From positions 1 through 22,761 of the IMG/VR virus record IMGVR_UViG_3300022698_000056: a stretch of DNA of 22,761 nt; one strand, given 5' to 3'. Numbering within the stretch: position 1 is the first letter of the stretch; each line of letters begins with the position of its first letter. Under the pieces are notes generated by a model. That model searched no databases, was not told the origin of the DNA, and saw nothing but the letters and a program-made list of their open reading frames with translations. Shown here one piece after another: positions 6,868 to 22,761 of the stretch. The position numbers and the translations under genes are program-made. The stretch comes from a virus.

Positions 6868-7446
6868 ATGAAAGATAAAGTTATTTTAGTCGACTGTGAT
6901 GGCGTTCTCCTTGATTGGTTGTATGCATTTGACGTTTGGATTAAGCGTCATGGATTCAGTGAAGTTGAATGTGATACGCCTGTTTATGAGATCGGAAAGC
7001 GTTACAATATCAAAGATGCCAAACGCTGGATTCGGATGTTCAATGAGTCTGCTGCGATCGGTTTCTTACCACCCCTGCGTGATGCCATGCATTATGTTAA
7101 GATGCTGCACGAGCGTCACGGTTATGTGTTCCATGCTATCACTAGCTTGAGCCTCGACCCTGCAGCTGGCGCATTGCGCACTAAGAACCTACAGAAGTTG
7201 TTTGGAGAAACAGCTTTCGAGCGGTTTGTATATCTAGACACCGGAGCTGATAAAGATGATGCTTTGCGTGAATACAAAGGAACTGGTTGCTTCTGGGTTG
7301 AAGATAAACCTGAGAATGCCGACACTGGTTGGGCTATGGGTCTCAATAGTTTACTGGTTGCCCACGACTTCAATGTAGGGTATAATGGACCTGCGACCCG
7401 AGTTAATAACTGGGCGGAAATTTACAATCTTGTGACTGGTGCTTAA
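6868..7446 (+). CDS. HAD-superfamily 5'(3')-nucleotidase-like phosphatase
   Basis: The protein has 192 residues. The N-terminal HAD motif VDCDGVLLDW gives the nucleophile D9 and acid D11. Motif II is T92/S93 in HAITSLS, motif III probably K129, and motif IV E145-D146 in WVEDKPEN. The size and VEDKP suit the class I deoxyribonucleotidase-like group found in many phages, which dephosphorylates nucleotides. The substrate is inferred. The start is ATG 6868 with GAAGGA upstream. The stop overlaps the polymerase start (TAATG), linking it to replication. Confidence 0.75.
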   Translation: MKDKVILVDCDGVLLDWLYAFDVWIKRHGFSEVECDTPVYEIGKRYNIKDAKRWIRMFNESAAIGFLPPLRDAMHYVKMLHERHGYVFHAITSLSLDPAAGALRTKNLQKLFGETAFERFVYLDTGADKDDALREYKGTGCFWVEDKPENADTGWAMGLNSLLVAHDFNVGYNGPATRVNNWAEIYNLVTGA

Positions 7447-8918
7447 TGCGATTTTATACTAACTTTTATGCTCGCGGTGATTACGTTTACATCCGCGGGT
7501 ATGACGATGGGGTTCGTTTCTCGGAGAAACACGAGTACAGCCCCACGTTCTATTTGCCGTCAAACAGCCGCACCGAGTGGCAGACTATTGATGGAACTTA
7601 TGTCGAGCCGATGGAACTGGGATCTATCAAAGAAGCTCGAGACTTTATTCGTCGATATGATGACGTGTCGAACTTCAAAGTATATGGATCAAACTCGTAT
7701 GCATACACCTGCCTGAATGAACACTATACGCAGGACTTTGATATTGATCATGTCCGTATTATCTCCCTTGATATTGAGGTCGGGTCTGAAGATGGGTTCC
7801 CCGAGCCTGAGCGAGCAGATCAACCCATTACGGCAATCACTATTGGCTTCCGTGGTAAGTATTATGCGTTTGGTGTGGGTGAGTTTGTCCCGACCGAGTC
7901 GCATACCAGCTATATTGATTGTCAGAATGAGAGCCGACTGATTGAGAAGTTCCTTGAGTTCTGGCGCAAGATTGATGCTGACATCGTGACTGGCTGGAAC
8001 GTGGGTGGGTTTGATATTGCATACCTCTACAACCGTATCCAAAAGATCAAGAGCAAGGCTGATGCCAAGCGCCTATCGCCTGTCGGTATTATCAACGAAC
8101 GTTCCTATACGAAGTTCAATAAAGAACATTTCGAGTACGAGCCAGTTGGTCTCGCCGTCCTAGACTACCTCGAGTTGTATAAGAAGTTTACATACACTCA
8201 GCAGGAATCGTACCGACTTGATCACATTGCATTCGTCGAGTTGGGTGAACGCAAATTAGATTACTCTGAGGTTGAGAATCTACACCAGCTTTACAAGACG
8301 GATTACCAGAAGTACATGGAGTATAACGTCCGTGACGTTGAACTGGTCGATCAGCTTGAAGATAAGATGCGGTTGATTGAGCAGGCGATGACTATTGCTT
8401 ATGATGCAAAAGTGAACTATAATGATGTCTTCACGCAGGTAAGGATGTGGGACGTATTAATACATAACTACCTGCTTGAAAGAAACATTGTAGTGCCGCC
8501 CAAAGAGGACTCAGAAAAGTCTGCGCAGTTCGCTGGCGCTTTTGTGAAAGAACCGCAGGTCGGTATGCATGAATGGATTATGAGTTTTGACTTGAACAGT
8601 CTGTATCCTCACCTGATCATGCAATACAACATCTCACCCGAGACGTTTGTGCCGGAAGGTTTCGTTTCTGGGTTGGAAGTCGATAAGATTGTTGATGGTA
8701 CTGCCGAGTTGCCAGATTACAATCAGGATTTCACTGAACTTGGTGATTGGGCGTTGACCGCTAATGGTCATCGGTATGATCGTTCGCAGATCGGCTTTCT
8801 GCCTGAGATGATGAATAACATGTACAATGAGCGAAAGATGTACAAAAAGAAAATGCTTGAAGCAAAGCAAGAACTTGAAGAAGTAGAAGAGAAACTGAAG
8901 GAGTTAGAAAATGAATAA
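7446..8918 (+). CDS. 43A: DNA polymerase gp43, N-terminal part (43A): exonuclease, palm motif A
   Basis: The protein has 490 residues. It holds the N-terminal and 3'-5' exonuclease domains: Exo I D109-I-E111, Exo II D190 in NVGGFDIAY, and Exo III Y293...D297 in YNVRDVEL. The first palm motif is D382 with SLYP at 385-388 in SFDLNSLYPHLI. It stops inside the fingers after a charged helix (KKKMLEAKQELEEVEEKLKE). It therefore lacks motifs B and C, which lie in 43B. T4 gp43 is one chain of 898 residues; 43A plus 43B total 859. The 5' end overlaps the HAD gene and the 3' end overlaps the inserted small gene by 8 nt. The active enzyme must be a two-chain complex. Confidence 0.95.
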   Translation: MRFYTNFYARGDYVYIRGYDDGVRFSEKHEYSPTFYLPSNSRTEWQTIDGTYVEPMELGSIKEARDFIRRYDDVSNFKVYGSNSYAYTCLNEHYTQDFDIDHVRIISLDIEVGSEDGFPEPERADQPITAITIGFRGKYYAFGVGEFVPTESHTSYIDCQNESRLIEKFLEFWRKIDADIVTGWNVGGFDIAYLYNRIQKIKSKADAKRLSPVGIINERSYTKFNKEHFEYEPVGLAVLDYLELYKKFTYTQQESYRLDHIAFVELGERKLDYSEVENLHQLYKTDYQKYMEYNVRDVELVDQLEDKMRLIEQAMTIAYDAKVNYNDVFTQVRMWDVLIHNYLLERNIVVPPKEDSEKSAQFAGAFVKEPQVGMHEWIMSFDLNSLYPHLIMQYNISPETFVPEGFVSGLEVDKIVDGTAELPDYNQDFTELGDWALTANGHRYDRSQIGFLPEMMNNMYNERKMYKKKMLEAKQELEEVEEKLKELENE

Positions 8919-9183
8919 AGGTGAAGTTGTAACAATTGTGACGATGGCTGGAGAGTTTGTCGGCAAGATGAATGACCAGAACGATACAAAGGTTGTGCTT
9001 GATGACCCTCGAATGTTGATCCAAACGCAAGAAGGTATGGGTTTCGCGCAGGGTGTTTGCGTGACAGGTAAGGCTGATCCTGATCAAGTATCGTTTTATG
9101 TGGGTGGTATTGTACTGCTTGCCGAGACTAATGATGAGATCGTCAAGGCATACCGTCAGGCTACAAGTGGGTTGATTCTTTAA
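8911..9183 (+). CDS. Small possible Sm-like beta-barrel protein inserted within the polymerase gene
   Basis: The protein has 90 residues: MNKGEVVTIVTMAGEFVGKM, then VVLDDPRMLIQTQEGMGFAQG, then a last part EIVKAYRQATSGLIL. The opening V-x-x-G-E-F-V-G-K-x-x-D...VVLDDP is the strand pattern of Sm/Lsm-like barrels. I recall similar stand-alone proteins (DPRM...GFA-G...AYR-A-SGL) in marine T4-like phages. This is not a homing endonuclease. It overlaps 43A by 8 nt and 43B by one base (TAATG), so all three are translated as a coupled unit. RNA or protein binding is inference from fold resemblance only. Confidence 0.7.
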   Translation: MNKGEVVTIVTMAGEFVGKMNDQNDTKVVLDDPRMLIQTQEGMGFAQGVCVTGKADPDQVSFYVGGIVLLAETNDEIVKAYRQATSGLIL

Positions 9184-10292
9184 TGACTAAAGACGAACTT
9201 TTGCAACGCAAGCGGCAGCTAGAGAAAGACATTTCTCGTTATGAAAACCTGCAGCTTGCCAAAAAGGTTCAGTTGAACTCAGCATACGGCGCGATCGGGA
9301 ACCAGTATTTCAGGTATTTCGATGTCCGTGTTGCTGAGTCTATCACATTGTCTGGACAACTGTCGATCAAGTGGATCGCTGCGAGGGTAAATGAATATCT
9401 TAACAAACTACTTAAAACTGAAGAAGTTGACTTTGTTATTGCAATTGATACGGACTCGATTTACGTGCGCTTTGACGAGCTTGTACGCACAGTGTTTAAG
9501 GAAAGAGCGATTCGCCCGACGGACGAGGTACGCAGGAAGATCGTGGACTTCCTTGACAACATCGCTGGAAAGAAGCTGGAACCGTTTATTGATAAGAGTT
9601 ATCAAGAACTTGCTGACCTGATGAATGCATATGACCAGAAGATGGTCATGGCTCGTGAGGTAATTGCAGACAAAGGCATCTGGACGGCAAAGAAGCGATA
9701 CATCCTGAACGTGCATGATAACGAAGGTGTTCGTTATGCTGAACCTAAAATCAAGATGATGGGTATTGAGGCAATCAAGTCTTCAACCCCGTATGCTTGT
9801 CGCGAGAAAATGAAGGAAGCGTATTCGATTGTTATGGGCGGGAACGAGCAAGAGGTTCAAGACTTTATTGCAGACTTCCGTGATGAGTTCAAGAAGCTTC
9901 CGTTCGAGGATATCGCGTTCCCTCGTGGTGTCTCTGAGTTGTCTAAGTACAGTAGCAATCAGCGTCAATTGGTAATCCCTAAAGGTGCCCCGATTCATGT
10001 TCGTGGTAGTCTGTTGTTCAATTACTTGCTGTATCAACACAAGCTTGATAAGCGTTATGAGTTGATCAAGGATGGCGAGAAGATTAAGTTCTGTTATATG
10101 AAGGAACCTAATCCTGCTGGTCAGAATGTGATGGCTGCGCTGAGCACCCTCCCCAAAGAGTTTGGTCTCGAGAAATACATCGACTATGACAAGCAGTTCG
10201 AGAAGTCGTTTGTTGAGCCACTCAAAGTTGTCCTGAACTCTATCGGTTGGGAACACGAAAAAACTGCAACCCTCGAGGATTTCTTTTCATGA
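9183..10292 (+). CDS. 43B: DNA polymerase gp43, C-terminal part (43B): fingers, palm motifs B/C, thumb
   Basis: The protein has 369 residues. A charged N-terminal helix (TKDELLQRKRQLEKDISRYE) would pair with the C-terminal helix of 43A at the fingertip. Motif B is K28-VQL-N32-S-AYG. Motif C is D89-T-D91 in AIDTDSIYV. The KKRY motif lies in WTAKKRYILNV. The C-terminus TATLEDFFS resembles the T4 gp43 tail (ASLFDMFDF) that binds the sliding clamp. All residues needed for synthesis exist across 43A and 43B, so the split should not inactivate the enzyme. The stop overlaps the next start (ATGA). Confidence 0.95.
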   Translation: MTKDELLQRKRQLEKDISRYENLQLAKKVQLNSAYGAIGNQYFRYFDVRVAESITLSGQLSIKWIAARVNEYLNKLLKTEEVDFVIAIDTDSIYVRFDELVRTVFKERAIRPTDEVRRKIVDFLDNIAGKKLEPFIDKSYQELADLMNAYDQKMVMAREVIADKGIWTAKKRYILNVHDNEGVRYAEPKIKMMGIEAIKSSTPYACREKMKEAYSIVMGGNEQEVQDFIADFRDEFKKLPFEDIAFPRGVSELSKYSSNQRQLVIPKGAPIHVRGSLLFNYLLYQHKLDKRYELIKDGEKIKFCYMKEPNPAGQNVMAALSTLPKEFGLEKYIDYDKQFEKSFVEPLKVVLNSIGWEHEKTATLEDFFS

Positions 10293-10501
10293 GTGAAGTA
10301 TCTAAAAGACGCCACCTAGCCAAAGCGGTTACGTGGCGCATCATTGCAAGCATTACGACAGCGTTGATTGCTTGGTTCTTTGGGTTGCCACCCAAAGCGA
10401 TCGGTGGCGTGTTTGTCGCCGACATTATCATTAAGTTTGTATTGTATTATGCGCATGAACGAGCGTGGTACAATTACGTTAAGATGGGAGTTAAACGATG
10501 A
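10289..10501 (+). CDS. DUF2061-like small membrane protein
   Basis: The protein has 70 residues. HLAKAVTWRIIASITTALIAWFF and the ending IIIKFVLYYAHERAW match the DUF2061 pattern (AK-xTWRxxA...T...KxxLYYxHERxW). Two hydrophobic spans are visible, about 17-33 and 38-55. Function is not known. ATG 10289 overlaps the 43B stop, and the stop overlaps the next start by 4 nt, so it is embedded in the replication operon. Confidence 0.8.
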   Translation: MSEVSKRRHLAKAVTWRIIASITTALIAWFFGLPPKAIGGVFVADIIIKFVLYYAHERAWYNYVKMGVKR

Positions 10502-13725: not shown

Positions 13726-14146
13726 TGCGTACATGGATTGTGCGGAACGTTTTGCTGAACTCTCGACAGCAGAGCGTTTACAAGTAGGTGCGGTGGTGGT
13801 CAAAGACCACCGCATCATTTCAATTGGGTATAATGGAACCCCGACTGGATGGGATAATTGCTGTGAAGAAGAGGTTGTCACCACATCCCCTGGATATGAA
13901 CCACTAGTCAGCACAAAGACTAAGCCCGAAGTATACCATGCAGAAGAGAACGCTATCCTGAAGCTGTCTGCCTCTGGAGAGTCCGGTTTAGGCGCTTCCA
14001 TATTCGTTACACACCAACCTTGCATGCAGTGCTCTAAGATGATTGCTGGCGCTGGGATCAAAGAAGTTTACTTCCGGAATGAGTATCGGTGCAATGCCGG
14101 TATCGACTTTCTGGAAAAGATGCAAATTAGTTGTAAAAAAGTGTAG
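13706..14146 (+). CDS. cd: dCMP deaminase-like enzyme
   Basis: The protein has 146 residues. The zinc site is H78-A-E80 in YHAEENAI and P105-C106-x-x-C109 in HQPCMQC. GYNGTPTGWDNC at 41-52 is typical of deoxycytidylate deaminases. The enzyme converts dCMP to dUMP for dTTP supply. T4 Cd is longer (193 residues), so this is a compact form. A related deaminase substrate is possible. It is the last gene before the second promoter cluster. Confidence 0.85.
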   Translation: MKRKWLDAYMDCAERFAELSTAERLQVGAVVVKDHRIISIGYNGTPTGWDNCCEEEVVTTSPGYEPLVSTKTKPEVYHAEENAILKLSASGESGLGASIFVTHQPCMQCSKMIAGAGIKEVYFRNEYRCNAGIDFLEKMQISCKKV

Positions 14147-14153
14147 ATAACTG

Positions 14154-14181
14154 TTTACTTTCTCCTCCATTGTAGTACAAT
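14154..14181 (+). promoter_or_regulatory. Early-type promoter (family copy 4)
   Basis: TTTACT (14154-14159), a 16-bp spacer and TACAAT (14176-14181). ATTGTA-G-TACAAT is a perfect 6+1+6 palindrome over the -10 box. The leader GCATAGATTGATTGAGGAAG follows. Confidence 0.84.
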
Positions 14182-14209
14182 AGGTGCATAGATTGATTGA
14201 GGAAGAACG

Positions 14210-14683
14210 ATGAAAGTAGACTATTCCCCGAGTGTCCTCGATGAGCTAGATGTTGTTGAAAGCATTATCTTGTTTATCGGGGACATTTACGGTTTGGACG
14301 CCACGATTACTGTCGACATCGAAGAGAACTTTGAGTACGAAGCTTGCGTTGAAGTAGTCGACTTGGAAAATGGCGAGTACAAACTGACCATCGACCCTAT
14401 CCTCTTCGAAGACGAGAAGGTTCTACTTACCACTATTGCCCATGAGATGATCCACGTGAAGCAGTATGAATATGGGCAGCTGGTTGCTAGTGAAGAAGCT
14501 GACAAAAATATATTCATTTGGAACGGTGATGAGTATGACTGGACTGGCGGTGTTGCTCGTTCTACTTACTTCTCGGCTCCTTGGGAAGTTGAAGCTTATG
14601 GTATGGAACGGGCATTGTATGAGCTGTGGCTTGAGAACGAAGACATGAAAAATAATTTGAAAAAGATGTTAGATAACTGTTGA
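14210..14683 (+). CDS. Putative HExxH zinc metalloprotein (ImmA/IrrE-like)
   Basis: The protein has 157 residues. AHEMIHVKQ gives H78-E79-x-x-H82. Later PWEVEAYGMERALYE carries E126 and E128 as candidates for the third ligand. Similar short phage and bacterial proteins with HEMVHxKQ...PWEIEAYG are annotated as metallopeptidases. No signal peptide, so it would act in the cytoplasm on host or phage proteins. It has its own early promoter. Its stop codon (TGA 14681-14683) lies inside the -35 box of the next promoter. Confidence 0.65.
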   Translation: MKVDYSPSVLDELDVVESIILFIGDIYGLDATITVDIEENFEYEACVEVVDLENGEYKLTIDPILFEDEKVLLTTIAHEMIHVKQYEYGQLVASEEADKNIFIWNGDEYDWTGGVARSTYFSAPWEVEAYGMERALYELWLENEDMKNNLKKMLDNC

Positions 14684-17496: not shown

Positions 17497-17504
17497 TATA
17501 AATA
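17497..17504 (+). promoter_or_regulatory. T4-type late promoter (TATAAATA)
   Basis: An exact TATAAATA box, as recognised by the gp55-type late sigma factor of T4-like phages. It lies 32 nt before the first packaged-type gene. Only two exact copies of this octamer were found by eye on the plus strand, both in this right-hand region. Confidence 0.8.
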
Positions 17505-17535
17505 GTCTAGTAAAACTAATTGCTGGACTAAAGAA

Positions 17536-18471
17536 ATGCTTTCGTTTGAAGAATATTTAACTGAATCAAAGAACACAGATGTAGCTGATGTAAACGAAAT
17601 TTTACTTGGCTACTATCTGGGCGGGTCATCTTGGAAGAAATATGATGACCCAAGTTCTGTCCAAAAACAGCTGGAACTAAAGAAGAAAAAAATTACAGCT
17701 GCACAATATGACCAGCAAGACGACCGTGCGCAACGCATGGCTAAAGAGACCATCTCTTGGTCCAAGAAAAATGGTTATAATGGAATCGTTAAGAAACTTT
17801 ACTGGACTGCCCGAAAGGGTTCTCTGCAAAGAGCAGTAGGTAAGTCTGGTAAAGTCGATTCAGGAAACCCCACCGATATCCTGATTGAATTCACTGACGG
17901 AGAGTTCCTTGGCATTTCTGCTAAGTCCACACTAAAGAATGCTGAGATCGGTTTCAAGAATCCAGGAATGGGTACTGTCGAAAAGAAACTGAAGATTGAA
18001 CTGTCTGATATCAAAAAAGAATCCGAAGCGAAGTTTAGCGAAGAAAACGACCTCCCGAAAGCTGCTAATGCTCGTAAGAAAGAGATCCGTGCACGTGACG
18101 GCATGAAGCCGAAAGCTGATAAAGTCGGTTCTGAAGTAATGGCTAAGATGCGCGACATTATGATTCAAAGGCTCGTTAAGATGAGCGACAAAGAAGCAAG
18201 AACCTATATAATGTCCGATTGGATGGACGCTTCTGATATTGTTTATCCAAACTACATAAAGGTGACTGGTAAAAAGGGTGGCGTTTCTATTGAAAACCCT
18301 CTTGAGAACAGTAAGATTGAGAGTATGAACAAAGGTAACATAAAGTTCATGAAGGTTGGTAATGAAAGTATCGGTGTTACTGCAGATAACAAGAAGATCA
18401 TGAAAATGAGATTCAAGTACGAGTCGCAGGCATTAGCTTCTTCGATGAAGTTGTCAGGAGATCCGTGGTAA
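17536..18471 (+). CDS. Putative head-packaged protein with PD-(D/E)xK-like nuclease motif
   Basis: The protein has 311 residues. It begins MLSFEEYLTE|S, matching in length and pattern the 10-residue capsid-targeting sequence of T4 internal proteins (MKTYQEFIAE|A) that the prohead protease cuts after Glu10. The core has D114 in NPTDILIEFTDGEFLGISAK and S-A-K130, a D...xxK arrangement seen in variant PD-(D/E)xK nucleases. The canonical Glu before x-K is replaced by Ser. The rest is lysine-rich helices and a beta-rich C-terminus. It is driven by a late promoter. I recall related unknowns in marine T4-like phages. Nuclease activity is inference. Confidence 0.7.
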   Translation: MLSFEEYLTESKNTDVADVNEILLGYYLGGSSWKKYDDPSSVQKQLELKKKKITAAQYDQQDDRAQRMAKETISWSKKNGYNGIVKKLYWTARKGSLQRAVGKSGKVDSGNPTDILIEFTDGEFLGISAKSTLKNAEIGFKNPGMGTVEKKLKIELSDIKKESEAKFSEENDLPKAANARKKEIRARDGMKPKADKVGSEVMAKMRDIMIQRLVKMSDKEARTYIMSDWMDASDIVYPNYIKVTGKKGGVSIENPLENSKIESMNKGNIKFMKVGNESIGVTADNKKIMKMRFKYESQALASSMKLSGDPW

Positions 18472-19700
18472 TGAAAAAATTTACTTCTTTCCTAACGGAA
18501 CAGAAAAACACGCACATGGAGCATCTTGAAGATGCCGTGCTTAATGGGGGTGTAAATGGCACAAGAGACGCAATCAACCTTCTCCGCAATCTACGAGACA
18601 TGCTTGCTGGTAATGCTGGCACCGGTGTTTCTACTACTGTTAAGTGGGATGGGGCTCCTGCTTTGTTTGCTGGTGTCGATCCATCTGATGGTAAGTTTTT
18701 TGTTGCCAAGAAGGGTATCTTCAACAAGAATCCCAAGGTCTACAAGACTGAACAAGAAGTCAGGGAAGACACCTCGGGCGATCTGGCTGACAAACTTTCG
18801 TTAGCACTAAAGTATCTACCGGAACTGGGAATTAAGAGCGGAGTCTATCAAGGCGACTTCTTGTTCTCAAAGTCAGATCTCAAGAAGGAAACTATTGACG
18901 GGGAGAAGTATGTCACTTTTCACCCGAATACCATCGTGTACGCAATCCCTGTAAACTCTGAGTTGGGTCGGACAATACGCAGTAAGAAGATTGGTATTGT
19001 CTGGCACACTGCATACGATGGTAAGTCTTTTGAAAGCATGAAAGCGACATTCGGAAAGAACATCGTAAACAACTTCAAGAATGCTAAAGATATCTGGTCG
19101 GTAGACGCTGAGTTCAAGGACGTGTCAGGTAAAGCTACGTTCACAGCTAAAGAAACTGCTGAAGTCACAGCACTATTGTCACAGGCAGGTAAGCTGTTCA
19201 GAAAGCTAGATTCTAAGACTCTTGACGGAATCAGCGATAATCCCGAACTGCTACAGAAAGTGAAGACGCACTTCAACACTAAGGTTCGTGAAGGTCAAAG
19301 GATTACAAACGTTAAGTCGCACGTCCGTTCTCTTGTGAACTACATTGCTGACTACTATGGTAAGCAAGCCGACAAACGAAAGACACAAAAAGGTAAAGAC
19401 GTTCAGTTCTCAAAAAGGGACGAAATATTAAAGTTCTTCTCTAACGCTAACGTGAAGAACCTAGAGAATATCTTCACAATGATGAACCTGATTATCGAAG
19501 CCAAAGAGATGGTTATAGATAAGATGGATGAAGCGAGTTCTATCGGTACATTCCTACGAACCAACAAAGGGTTTGAAGTGACTTCACCAGAAGGTTACGT
19601 TGGTATTGACAGGAAAGGTAATGCACTGAAACTTGTCAATAGAATGGAGTTCAGCCGAGCTAACTTCTCTTCGGATATCATCAAAGGGTGGCAGAAATAA
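18471..19700 (+). CDS. Putative head-packaged nucleotidyltransferase/ligase-like protein (DUF6267-like)
   Basis: The protein has 409 residues and begins MKKFTSFLTE|Q, again a 10-residue capsid-targeting-like sequence ending at Glu10. HMEHLEDAVLNGG...LRDMLAG opens a family I know from cyanophages (recalled as DUF6267, unchecked). T-V-K58-W-D60-G61 is a KxDG motif as in ATP-dependent ligases and capping enzymes. QGDFLF could be motif III. Near the end SPEGYVGIDRKGNALKLVNR has the E374-G and K387 spacing of motifs IV and V. It could therefore be a covalent nucleotidyltransferase joining nucleic acid ends. ATG overlaps the upstream stop (TAATG), so it shares the late promoter. Confidence 0.75.
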   Translation: MKKFTSFLTEQKNTHMEHLEDAVLNGGVNGTRDAINLLRNLRDMLAGNAGTGVSTTVKWDGAPALFAGVDPSDGKFFVAKKGIFNKNPKVYKTEQEVREDTSGDLADKLSLALKYLPELGIKSGVYQGDFLFSKSDLKKETIDGEKYVTFHPNTIVYAIPVNSELGRTIRSKKIGIVWHTAYDGKSFESMKATFGKNIVNNFKNAKDIWSVDAEFKDVSGKATFTAKETAEVTALLSQAGKLFRKLDSKTLDGISDNPELLQKVKTHFNTKVREGQRITNVKSHVRSLVNYIADYYGKQADKRKTQKGKDVQFSKRDEILKFFSNANVKNLENIFTMMNLIIEAKEMVIDKMDEASSIGTFLRTNKGFEVTSPEGYVGIDRKGNALKLVNRMEFSRANFSSDIIKGWQK

Positions 19701-19707
19701 CTGTCAT

Positions 19708-19715
19708 TATAAATA
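19708..19715 (+). promoter_or_regulatory. T4-type late promoter (TATAAATA)
   Basis: A second exact TATAAATA box, 77 nt before the large multidomain gene. The 93-nt gap between the two genes holds this box and a TTAGGA ribosome site at 19777-19782, and nothing else I can support. Confidence 0.8.
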
Positions 19716-19792
19716 GATTTATTAAAACAACAGTTTGATTATACTGAGAAACCAGTAACAAGTCAAGCGTTAAGTCTTAGGAAAACACGCTA

Positions 19793-22761
19793 ATGAAAAA
19801 AGTCGTATTTACGTTCGGCAGGATGAACCCGCCGACCATTGGTCACCAGAAATTGGTCGACAAAGTAATGTCGGTTGCCAAGAAAGAAAAGGGTGAACCG
19901 AGAATCTATCTGTCTCACACACAGAACGCTAAGAAAGACCCCCTCGATTATATCACTAAGATCCAGATGGCTCGCAAGGCATTTGGCAAACCGGTTATAA
20001 AGAGTCCTTCCAAAACCGTATTCCAGATTATGTCAGAGCTTGAGAAGGCTGGCTTTACTGACGTGATTATGGTAGTTGGTAGCGACCGTGTCAATGAGTT
20101 TGGTTCTTTACTAAAGAAGTACAACGGTAAAACCTACAACTTCGATTCAATCACAACCGTTTCTGCTGGCGAACGTGACCCTGACGCACAAGGTGTTGAG
20201 GGTATGTCTGCGTCTAAGCTTCGCGCTGTTGCTGTTGACGGCGACTTTGATACGTTCAAGCAAGGTCTAGCTAAAGGTTTGAAGGATTCTGACGCCAAGA
20301 AGATCTATGATACAATTCGCAAAGTTTTGGGCGAAGAAGTTGAATTAGACGAGAATCGCAAACCTCTATCGATTGCACAACGTCAAGCTAAGGCTCGTCA
20401 GATGCGACGTCTAGCACCTAAGTTGGCTCGTATGCGCAAGGTTAAGCAAAAGCGTATGGCTGATTCTGATGCACTAAAGACTAGAGCACAGAAAGCAGCA
20501 AGAAATATTGTCCGTAAGAAAGTTGCAGGACAACGTGGCGCAGATTACAGTTCGCTTTCTCCTGCAGAGAAGATTACGGTCGATAAGTTGGTTGCTAAGA
20601 AATCGGCAGTTATCTCCAGACTAGCCAAGAAGTTACTACCAAAGGTTCGTAAGTCTGAGCAAGAAAGGTTGAAGCAAGCTAGAACTTCAAAGAAAGAAGA
20701 GCTAGACATCGATTTGATGTTTGAGCAGGTTATTGAAGAGAATCGTAAGAATCCTGAAGACCCAGATATCGGTGATCGTGAAGGCAGTCAACCTAAAAAG
20801 TATCACAGCGGTTTAGCAAAGTCTACCAAGAAGAAGCGTGACTCGCAGTTTAAGAAAGGTGCTGAGAAAGATTCGGACGATCCTTCTGCATATCCCGATA
20901 AGCACGCTGGTGATTCTGACGCTAAGACCAAGCCGAGCAAGTACACCAAAAAGTATCACCAAATGTACGGTGAAGATGCTATTGAACGTGCAAGGGAAAA
21001 GATTGCTCGTGAGAAAGAAAGAGATAAGCGTAAGCACGATTCAATCCTAGACCGCGCACGTACTCGTGCTGCTCAGCAGAAGAATGCTCAAACGGAAAGT
21101 TTTGAACTGACCGAAAACGCTAAAGCTGCCCTGCAAAAGAAATCAGAAAAGTCTGGTATTGCATACGGTATCCTGAAGAAAGTTTACGATCGTGGACTAG
21201 CTGCATGGCGCACGGGGCATCGTCCTGGAGCAACACAACAGCAGTGGGGTTTTGCACGAGTCAACTCTTTCATTACTGGCGGTAAGACTAGAACTACTGC
21301 TGATGCAGACTTGTGGCGTAAGCATAAGGGTAAGCCAGCCAAAAAAGAAGAAGTTGAGCTAGAAGAAAAGTTCAAGATCGACCGCAATACATACTTTATG
21401 GGTAAACCTGCAGATAAAGTTTATTCCCACGATTCTTGGTATAGTATTGCTAAAGTAGGTAAAGATTGGGTTGTATCTAACCCTGATGACGAATTTGTCA
21501 GCAAGCATAAGTCACTTCGCGATGCTAAAGCTGAAATTCAAGGAATAACTGAAGAAGGTGGCGCTGGCGAAGAAGGTACTGACAAGCTAGTTAAAAAATA
21601 TAAGGAAGAAACACCAGAATGCTGGGATGGATATAAGCAACAAGGAATGAAAAAGAAAGGCGACAAAATGGTGCCTAACTGCGTTCCTGAATCTGTCGAG
21701 TTAGAAGAAGGCGTAAACGATCCTGCTATCTTTAAAGCAGTGTTTCTAGCCGGTGGTCCTGGATCTGGTAAGTCTTTTATTGTTGGTAAAACAGCATTAA
21801 CTTCTTTTGGTTTTAAATTGATCAACTCTGACGATGCCTTCGAAGCTGCTCTTAAGAAAGCTAACCTAACAGCAACACCAAAAGACATCTATTCTCCCAA
21901 GGGGCAAGAAATCAGATCAAAGGCTGTTGCCATTACTGGTAAAAAGATGCAGCTTGCTATTGATGGTCGTCTCGGTTTAGTTATTGACGGTACTGGTAAG
22001 AACTACGAAAAGATCAAAAAACAAGTTGAAATGCTTCGTGAATTGGGTTACGAAGTTCAAATGCTATTTGTTAACACTGATTTGGAAACTGCACAAAACC
22101 GTAATCAGAAAAGAGAAAGAACACTACCAAAAGATCAAGTTGAAAAGATGTGGAATGATGTGCAGAAAAACATCGGTAAATTCCAAAACTTATTCCGCAA
22201 TAATTTGATTGTAGTGGATAACTCTGATGGGTCTAACGTAGATAAAATTACAATGTCTGTCTATAAAAAGGTCGGTAACTGGGCTAAAACACCAGTAAAA
22301 ACATCTAAGGCTCGTAAGTGGATTGATCAACAGCGTGCTAAAAGTGCACCTAAATCATTAGATGAATCTTTCGAGACTATGTTTGCGAACGAGTTTATGT
22401 CAATTCAAGGTGCGTTTGAACACCACCCTGACGTTCAAGCAAAACTAGACGAGAACGACGAATGCTGCGATGAATGCGAAGATATCTTTGAGCAGGTTCT
22501 TGAAGAAGCAGAGTATCAAGGCAAAAAGGTTACACTGAACGATCCGATTCGTGGTGGTTCTAAGAAGTTTTATGTCTATGTAAAAAACGACAAAGGCAAT
22601 GTTGTGAAGGTTTCATTCGGTGATCCGAATATGGAAATCAAACGTGACGACCCCGCAAGAAGAAAAAGTTTCCGCGCAAGACACAATTGTGCAGATCCAG
22701 GACCAAAGTGGAAAGCACGATACTGGTCTTGCTGGCAATGGCGTGCTGGCGCAAAAGTTGA
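19793..22761 (+). CDS. Giant multidomain late protein: nucleotidyltransferase, DUF modules, P-loop kinase; probable protease-processed polyprotein (3' end cut by window)
   Basis: At least 989 residues, with no stop before the window ends. Domain 1 (1-~186): cytidylyltransferase-like fold, FGRMNPPTIGH with T15-x-G-H18 and GMSASKLR (137-144), as in NadM/RibF-type enzymes. Then Lys/Arg-rich regions (~188-316, 317-441). At ~450-505, AYGILKKVYDRGLAAWRTGH recalls a phage module annotated as DUF5824. At ~595-637 is a PECWDGYKQQGMKKKG motif. At ~640-800 is a P-loop kinase (G654-GPGSGKS661, zeta-toxin/PNK-like). From ~906 a module with RRKSFRARHNC. Boundaries coincide with (L/I)xE sites after E187, E316, E441, E525, E639, E858, E887 and E905, like T4 gp21 cleavage sites. 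A late promoter precedes it. Confidence 0.85.
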   Translation, partial: MKKVVFTFGRMNPPTIGHQKLVDKVMSVAKKEKGEPRIYLSHTQNAKKDPLDYITKIQMARKAFGKPVIKSPSKTVFQIMSELEKAGFTDVIMVVGSDRVNEFGSLLKKYNGKTYNFDSITTVSAGERDPDAQGVEGMSASKLRAVAVDGDFDTFKQGLAKGLKDSDAKKIYDTIRKVLGEEVELDENRKPLSIAQRQAKARQMRRLAPKLARMRKVKQKRMADSDALKTRAQKAARNIVRKKVAGQRGADYSSLSPAEKITVDKLVAKKSAVISRLAKKLLPKVRKSEQERLKQARTSKKEELDIDLMFEQVIEENRKNPEDPDIGDREGSQPKKYHSGLAKSTKKKRDSQFKKGAEKDSDDPSAYPDKHAGDSDAKTKPSKYTKKYHQMYGEDAIERAREKIAREKERDKRKHDSILDRARTRAAQQKNAQTESFELTENAKAALQKKSEKSGIAYGILKKVYDRGLAAWRTGHRPGATQQQWGFARVNSFITGGKTRTTADADLWRKHKGKPAKKEEVELEEKFKIDRNTYFMGKPADKVYSHDSWYSIAKVGKDWVVSNPDDEFVSKHKSLRDAKAEIQGITEEGGAGEEGTDKLVKKYKEETPECWDGYKQQGMKKKGDKMVPNCVPESVELEEGVNDPAIFKAVFLAGGPGSGKSFIVGKTALTSFGFKLINSDDAFEAALKKANLTATPKDIYSPKGQEIRSKAVAITGKKMQLAIDGRLGLVIDGTGKNYEKIKKQVEMLRELGYEVQMLFVNTDLETAQNRNQKRERTLPKDQVEKMWNDVQKNIGKFQNLFRNNLIVVDNSDGSNVDKITMSVYKKVGNWAKTPVKTSKARKWIDQQRAKSAPKSLDESFETMFANEFMSIQGAFEHHPDVQAKLDENDECCDECEDIFEQVLEEAEYQGKKVTLNDPIRGGSKKFYVYVKNDKGNVVKVSFGDPNMEIKRDDPARRKSFRARHNCADPGPKWKARYWSCWQWRAGAKV

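Follow-up and report, generated by a model that had tools for sequence, protein, structure and literature searches.

We analysed a 22,761-nt stretch of DNA, IMGVR_UViG_3300022698_000056 (the window), a 22.8-kb contig fragment of a T4-like phage in which three co-oriented genes, P1, P2 and P3, follow a replication block. P1 and P2 each begin with a decamer resembling the capsid-targeting sequence (CTS) of T4, and we consider it probable that both are CTS-tagged late internal head proteins and that P3 is a fused polyprotein of the same loading system. In the phage carrying this DNA, P1 and P2 would be made late in infection, bind the prohead core through their decamers and be trimmed after Glu10 by a gp21-family prohead protease, while P3-type proteins would enter through internal or N-terminal tags; the head load would then enter the next cell together with the DNA. 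The proposal builds on the tags themselves, their conservation, their spread over unrelated protein families, late promoters and the anatomy of modules and cleavage motifs in P3. Packaging of homologues, including a tagged nucleotidyltransferase, is supported by published proteomics of relatives.

P1 and P2 are the only open reading frames (ORFs) in the window that carry the decamer. Genetic dissection of the T4 CTS assigned residues 4 and 7 to targeting and residues 8 and 10 to processing, according to PMC9026906. The targeting residues are matched in P1 (F4 and Y7) and in P2 (F4 and F7), as are the cleavage determinants, a hydrophobic residue at position 8 and Glu10, and the resemblance reported in a preliminary description of this DNA is thus real at the key positions. 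In predicted models the N-termini are disordered (residues 1–12 of P1 and 1–15 of P2). Among 79 N-termini of DUF6267, the family of P2, F or L occupies position 4 in 70, Y or F position 7 in 68, L or I position 8 in 71 and E position 10 in 68, with variation at positions 2, 3, 5, 6 and 9; several exceptions have a decamer shorter or longer by one residue. Conservation of (L/I)xE at residue 10 among homologues was the check proposed in the preliminary description, and these N-termini pass it. E10 is invariant in a 49-sequence DUF6267 alignment, and the P1 decamer is kept in P1 homologues from loci L028, L081, L082 and L084. The cyanophage DUF6267 proteins examined (S-SM1, S-SZBM1, P-HM2 and S-8S56) have no decamer and mostly start near KNTHLEHLED, and the decamer is therefore separable from the enzyme. 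Similar residues also follow both tags in the window (TESKNTD in 17536–17580 and TEQKNTH in 18471–18515), which may reflect copying of a tag between neighbouring genes.

The decamer is widespread in related loci. Across the window and 80 such loci, it was present on 123 of 1,621 plus-strand ORFs, compared with 1.95 expected from shuffled N-termini, and on none of 1,395 minus-strand ORFs. The tagged proteins fall into 23 families without detectable mutual relation. The slot preceding DUF6267 differs between phages and is filled by many unrelated tagged families, and a tagged HAD-type protein found in the survey matches a phage polynucleotide kinase family. The T4-type late-promoter octamer TATAAATA occurs twice in the window against 0.63 expected, a count also reached in 12 of 100 shuffles, so its position and not its number is taken as evidence; it lies upstream of 53 of 67 nucleotidyltransferase ORFs homologous to P3 compared with 64 of 532 other ORFs.

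We then turned to published virion proteomes of relatives, using a strict decamer pattern defined from T4 and the window ahead of the comparison. In S-CREM2, decamer proteins accounted for 5 of 52 virion proteins (Table 3 of PMC10665884) versus 1 of 167 non-virion proteins (p = 0.003). The five include a SAM hydrolase, an APH-like kinase and a cytidylyltransferase (N-terminus MKNFSSFLTE), all classed as non-structural virion proteins (PMC10665884). The cytidylyltransferase of S-SM1 virions (T4-GC190, SSM1_190) begins MKKFSAFLNE|A and the NMNAT of S-SCSM1 virions begins MKSFLQFLKE|A; the S-SZBM1 virion cytidylyltransferase instead starts with the 9-mer MRFRQFIIE|A. The neighbours of the S-SCSM1 NMNAT, proteins 89, 90, 92 and 93, carry virion-protein annotations, and protein 90 shows homology along most of its length (E = 8e-51) to the product of L067 8683–9996, the gene that precedes DUF6267 in that locus. 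Pooling three genomes gave the decamer in 6 of 127 virion versus 4 of 592 other proteins (p = 0.003; p = 0.016 for a wider pattern), an enrichment driven mainly by S-CREM2. Decamer conservation, the 23 unrelated families and these homologous tagged virion proteins strongly support head packaging by a T4-type CTS, as first proposed from the window alone. Separately, the Cas9-like protein of S-CREM2 virions (7704–10313; L008) may also be tagged: RFASFMAE|A stands about 18 residues from where its annotation starts. Small decamer proteins also lie near the terminase and neck genes of both S-SZBM1 (S-SZBM1_191, L103; MKSFKSFLSESVNI) and S-SCSM1 (SSCSM1_30, L110; MKTFKQFMSESVNI), and are not reported in virions.

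What the tagged proteins do is understood to different degrees. P2 matched PF19782 (DUF6267) with E = 1.8e-113 and 380.1 bits against a curated cut-off of 27, and the ligase-superfamily motifs K58-x-D60-G61, E374-G375-x-V377 and K387 are invariant in the 49-sequence alignment and fall on strands in the model. A DUF6267 sequence search of the PDB found nothing, and the top Foldseek matches in the PDB were DNA ligases at low scores (E = 0.07, TM 0.2); the nearest annotated predicted viral structure outside the family was an RNA ligase (E = 0.0044, probability 0.97). Motifs and structural neighbours thus lend moderate support to the earlier suggestion that P2 is ligase-like. P1 had no Pfam, PHROG or PDB fold match and its model reached a predicted local distance difference test (pLDDT) score of 69. 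E21, D114 and K130 are invariant (E...PTD...GxSxK), with a serine (Ser128) where a PD-(D/E)xK core has its second acidic residue, and by eye five tagged genes preceding DUF6267 elsewhere (L031, L024, L054, L047 and L090) have D...ExK or D...SxK; the nuclease-like label given to P1 is weakly supported by these patterns. The two enzymatic domains previously assigned to P3 were confirmed by profiles and motifs: module 1 as a HIGH-type nucleotidyltransferase (CTP_transf_like, 21.2 bits versus a cut-off of 21; phrog_395, E = 4e-47) and module 6 as a P-loop kinase of the Zeta/AAA_33 type (Walker A AGGPGSGKS; Zeta_toxin, 52.3 bits versus a cut-off of 22.3).

The most likely role of this load would be to supply, at the start of infection, a changeable nuclease together with end-processing enzymes (ligase-like, kinase and nucleotidyltransferase). 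The set would fit either repair of incoming nucleic acid or action against host or competitor systems. A serious contender, which we place a little short of even, is that the load mainly serves counter-defence or host takeover, with a diversifying nuclease slot, rather than genome repair: many unrelated tagged families occupy the slot preceding DUF6267 and several of them show PD-(D/E)xK-like patterns, S-CREM2 virions contain a SAM hydrolase and a Cas9-like protein, and locus L053 encodes a tagged HD_4 hydrolase, yet healing and sealing of nucleic-acid ends would suit DUF6267 and the kinase and HAD-type proteins just as well. The L053 protein (13803–14357; MKTFKKYIAE) is possibly of the RelA/SpoT type, in which case it may be an injected alarmone hydrolase.

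P3 is built differently from P1 and P2 (Table 1), and its internal tag-like sequences and cleavage motifs suggest a polyprotein, a reading that the preliminary description did not propose. In other loci the P3 modules occur alone or fused in varied combinations, and [LIVMF]xE motifs are found at module junctions in fused and separate versions alike. Counting distinct sequences, which include related and non-independent ones, the motif stands at the start of 46 of 50 basic, 42 of 45 DUF5824, 7 of 8 kinase and 36 of 37 C-terminal modules, compared with 35–42% of shuffled junctions. A stronger argument is that, in the separate modules, the decamer or leader stops at the position of the P3 junction. 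Separate kinases read ELTE|GVNDPSIF (L014, after MLTFDQFVNE) and ILKE|GLYDPGIF (HTVC008M) where P3 has ELEE|GVNDPAIF, and a separate C-terminal module reads MLTFTQFIAE|AEYQGKKV (L040) where P3 has FEQVLEE|AEYQGKKV. The junctions match the hydrophobic-x-Glu cleavage motif of major capsid proteins (MCPs) from related contigs, and the decamers share this terminal motif: with cut sites assigned by position relative to T4 (FLTE|A), MCPs on cassette-bearing contigs have LLME|T, LLME|T, LLGE|A, MISE|T and LLSE|A, and the S-CREM2 MCP has LLTE|A.

Internal decamers with full spacing numbered 64 in 60 P3-type proteins, compared with 11.5 expected, and 23 of the 64 adjoin module starts, regions that make up 6.8% of residues; decamers near module starts are the expected remnant of tagged-gene fusion. 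P3 would accordingly have arisen by joining of tagged modules (nucleotidyltransferase, basic, DUF5824, P-loop kinase and C-terminal), with tags and [LIV]xE sites left as linkers, and the protease would cut between them to give separate proteins inside the head. In one P3 homologue, residues 365–398 of L075:10603–13155 comprise a tandem of three decamer-like sequences (DFEFDNFLGE, NAEFELFLGE and NNEFESFLEE), and in another, residues 488–497 of L082:14611–17382 form a complete decamer including the methionine, MRSFSQFIKE, either the relic of a former gene start or a start site inside the gene.

For the specific proposal of P3 and its relatives as polyproteins packaged in the head, in which fused tagged genes keep their tags as internal linkers and a single packaging event followed by gp21 cleavage frees several enzymes in the capsid, to be delivered along with the genome, we judge the chances to be evenly balanced. 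Rather less probable, although far from negligible, is that P1 and P2 are tagged and packaged while P3 remains unprocessed, an ordinary cytoplasmic multidomain enzyme whose acidic linkers contain LxE by chance. P3 has no N-terminal decamer in the window and so short a motif as [LIV]xE turns up in over a third of shuffled junctions, but it stands at 88–97% of junctions for four modules, the separate versions have a decamer or LxE at the same point, and relatives of P3 have N-terminal decamers (or near matches) on the nucleotidyltransferase ORF (L018, L071, L085, L026 and C48C1), with nucleotidyltransferases detected in virions.

Besides the non-independence of the junction counts and the dependence of the pooled enrichment on S-CREM2, several points weigh against CTS loading of P1 and P2 and the polyprotein reading of P3. 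P3 starts directly with the nucleotidyltransferase, and a search for an N-terminal tag by upstream extension met an in-frame stop just upstream and found none; the internal decamers are putative targeting sequences. The earlier idea of a packaged enzyme set is partly supported and needs correcting on this point for P3. A looser decamer pattern was not significant in S-CREM2 (p = 0.09), S-SZBM1 alone showed no virion enrichment (0 of 30 versus 3 of 188) and neither did S-SCSM1 alone. Most decamer ORFs of these last two phages were undetected in virions, the undetected ones being small (69–204 amino acids). No report of DUF6267 in any virion was found, S-SZBM1_141 being undetected, nor were N-terminal peptide data found for any tagged protein, and the S-CREM2 authors caution about possible co-purification (PMC10665884). 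The nuclease assignment of P1 has no match among PDB folds. A different role for the decamer, as a conserved amphipathic helix at the N-terminus that serves partner docking or stability rather than as a targeting propeptide, is nevertheless very improbable: its cleavage is predicted from sequence and E10 conservation may reflect common descent within DUF6267, but one pattern recurs on 23 unrelated families with the positions mapped in T4 conserved, cyanophage homologues exist without it, the model N-termini of P1 and P2 are disordered and tagged enzymes are present in virions.

Table 1 Features of the P1–P3 cassette in the window
Feature	Position	Strand	Remarks
Late-promoter octamer, T4 type, TATAAATA	17497..17504	+	Upstream of P1–P2; the octamer occurs twice in the window
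P1	17536..18471	+	311 amino acids; nuclease-like (E21, PTD114, GIS128-A-K130 pattern), function uncertain
P1 capsid-targeting-like decamer, MLSFEEYLTE	17536..17565	+	Predicted cut after Glu10 (MLSFEEYLTE|S)
P2	18471..19700	+	DUF6267 (PF19782); predicted covalent nucleotidyltransferase/ligase (K58xDG, E374-G-x-V, K387)
P2 capsid-targeting-like decamer, MKKFTSFLTE	18471..18500	+	Predicted cut after Glu10 (MKKFTSFLTE|Q)
Late-promoter octamer, T4 type, TATAAATA	19708..19715	+	Upstream of P3; other of the two in the window
P3	19793..22759	+	Modular, at least 989 amino acids, no N-terminal decamer, open at contig end
P3 module 1, HIGH-type nucleotidyltransferase	19793..20347	+	NPPTIGH, GMSASKLR; profile match and motifs
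Glu187 of ELDE|N	20351..20353	+	Predicted prohead-protease site before basic module
P3 module 2, Arg/Lys-rich basic	20354..20707	+	Encoded in C48C1 by a tagged gene of its own (MLSFKQFVSE|V)
Internal decamer-like DLMFEQVIEE|N	20711..20740	+
P3 module 2b	20744..20986	+	PDIG...KYTKKYHQMYGE
Glu441 of FELTE|N	21113..21115	+	Predicted cleavage site before DUF5824
P3 module 3, DUF5824 (PF19141)	21116..21352	+	Separate tagged gene in C48C1
Glu639 of ELEE|GVNDPAIF	21707..21709	+	Predicted cleavage site before kinase
P3 module 6, P-loop kinase	21710..22342	+	Zeta_toxin/AAA_33
Internal decamer-like EDIFEQVLEE|AEYQG	22478..22507	+
P3 module 7	22508..22759	+	EYQGKKVTLND..., phrog_7595; many relatives have it as a gene of its own, sometimes with a tag

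The P2 ATG at 18471 overlaps the P1 stop by one base. The replication block upstream encodes a sliding-clamp-loader protein, HSP20, a MazG-like protein, a split B-family polymerase, a UvsX/RecA-like protein and a DnaB-like helicase. The cassette likewise follows the gp41 helicase, directly or a few genes later, in Stenotrophomonas phage DLP_6, Pelagibacter phage HTVC008M, Methylophilales phage Melnitz and S-SZBM1, and is also present in C48C1. Elsewhere in the window, two ORFs make up the split B-family DNA polymerase (7446–10292) and flank a 90-amino-acid ORF, a layout similar to that of S-CREM2, and a tRNA-Met(CAT) gene lies at 364–440. PADLOC gave no credible match. There is no MCP gene in the window.

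Several known systems resemble parts of this one. The internal proteins IPI–IPIII of T4 are also products of late genes in a phage with LxE capsid maturation, and in the account of their CTS (Mullaney and Black 1996, via PMC9026906) they share aromatic or hydrophobic residues at positions 4 and 7, a hydrophobic residue at 8 and Glu10; their payloads, however, are small basic proteins, whereas here the tag precedes enzymes, spans at least 23 families and recurs inside a fused multidomain protein. The T4 Alt ADP-ribosyltransferase is a head-packaged, gp21-trimmed enzyme acting at the start of infection, but it has a different short leader (MELITELFDE) and no known relation to P1–P3. Polyvalent proteins (Iyer et al. 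2017, PMC5512222) similarly combine unlike enzymatic domains and are thought to enter with phage DNA. They often have their own peptidase or MuF/portal fusions, whereas P3, in which no peptidase or MuF/portal Pfam domain was found up to the contig end, would be cut by the head protease at LxE linkers; cyanophages are not mentioned in that paper. In phiKZ and SPN3US, a gp21-like protease cuts head and ejection proteins after Glu, but the accessible text of PMC5694885 describes mostly long propeptides, an AxE motif in SPN3US and no fused multi-enzyme protein. Also related are the cytidylyltransferases or NMNATs of S-SM1, S-SCSM1, S-SZBM1 and S-CREM2, homologues of P3 module 1 detected in virions by mass spectrometry; the accessible parts of the papers on them discuss NAD synthesis or co-purification and mention no targeting tag.

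CTS loading is already known from T4; what is new is that it apparently extends to many enzyme families in Kyanoviridae-like phages, together with the fused P3 and its internal tags. Judged by title and abstract, none of the open-access papers using 'capsid targeting sequence' concerned cyanophages or marine phages, although prior reports elsewhere are possible, and no mention of DUF6267 was found in the open-access literature searched. If the proposal is correct, the head cargo of abundant T4-related aquatic phages could be read from genomes by a short motif, and many genes now labelled 'hypothetical' would be candidates for encoding injected enzymes. In the fused P3, the capsid protease would have a phage polyprotein as its substrate, and the recurrence of cytidylyltransferases in cyanophage virion proteomes would have a possible explanation.

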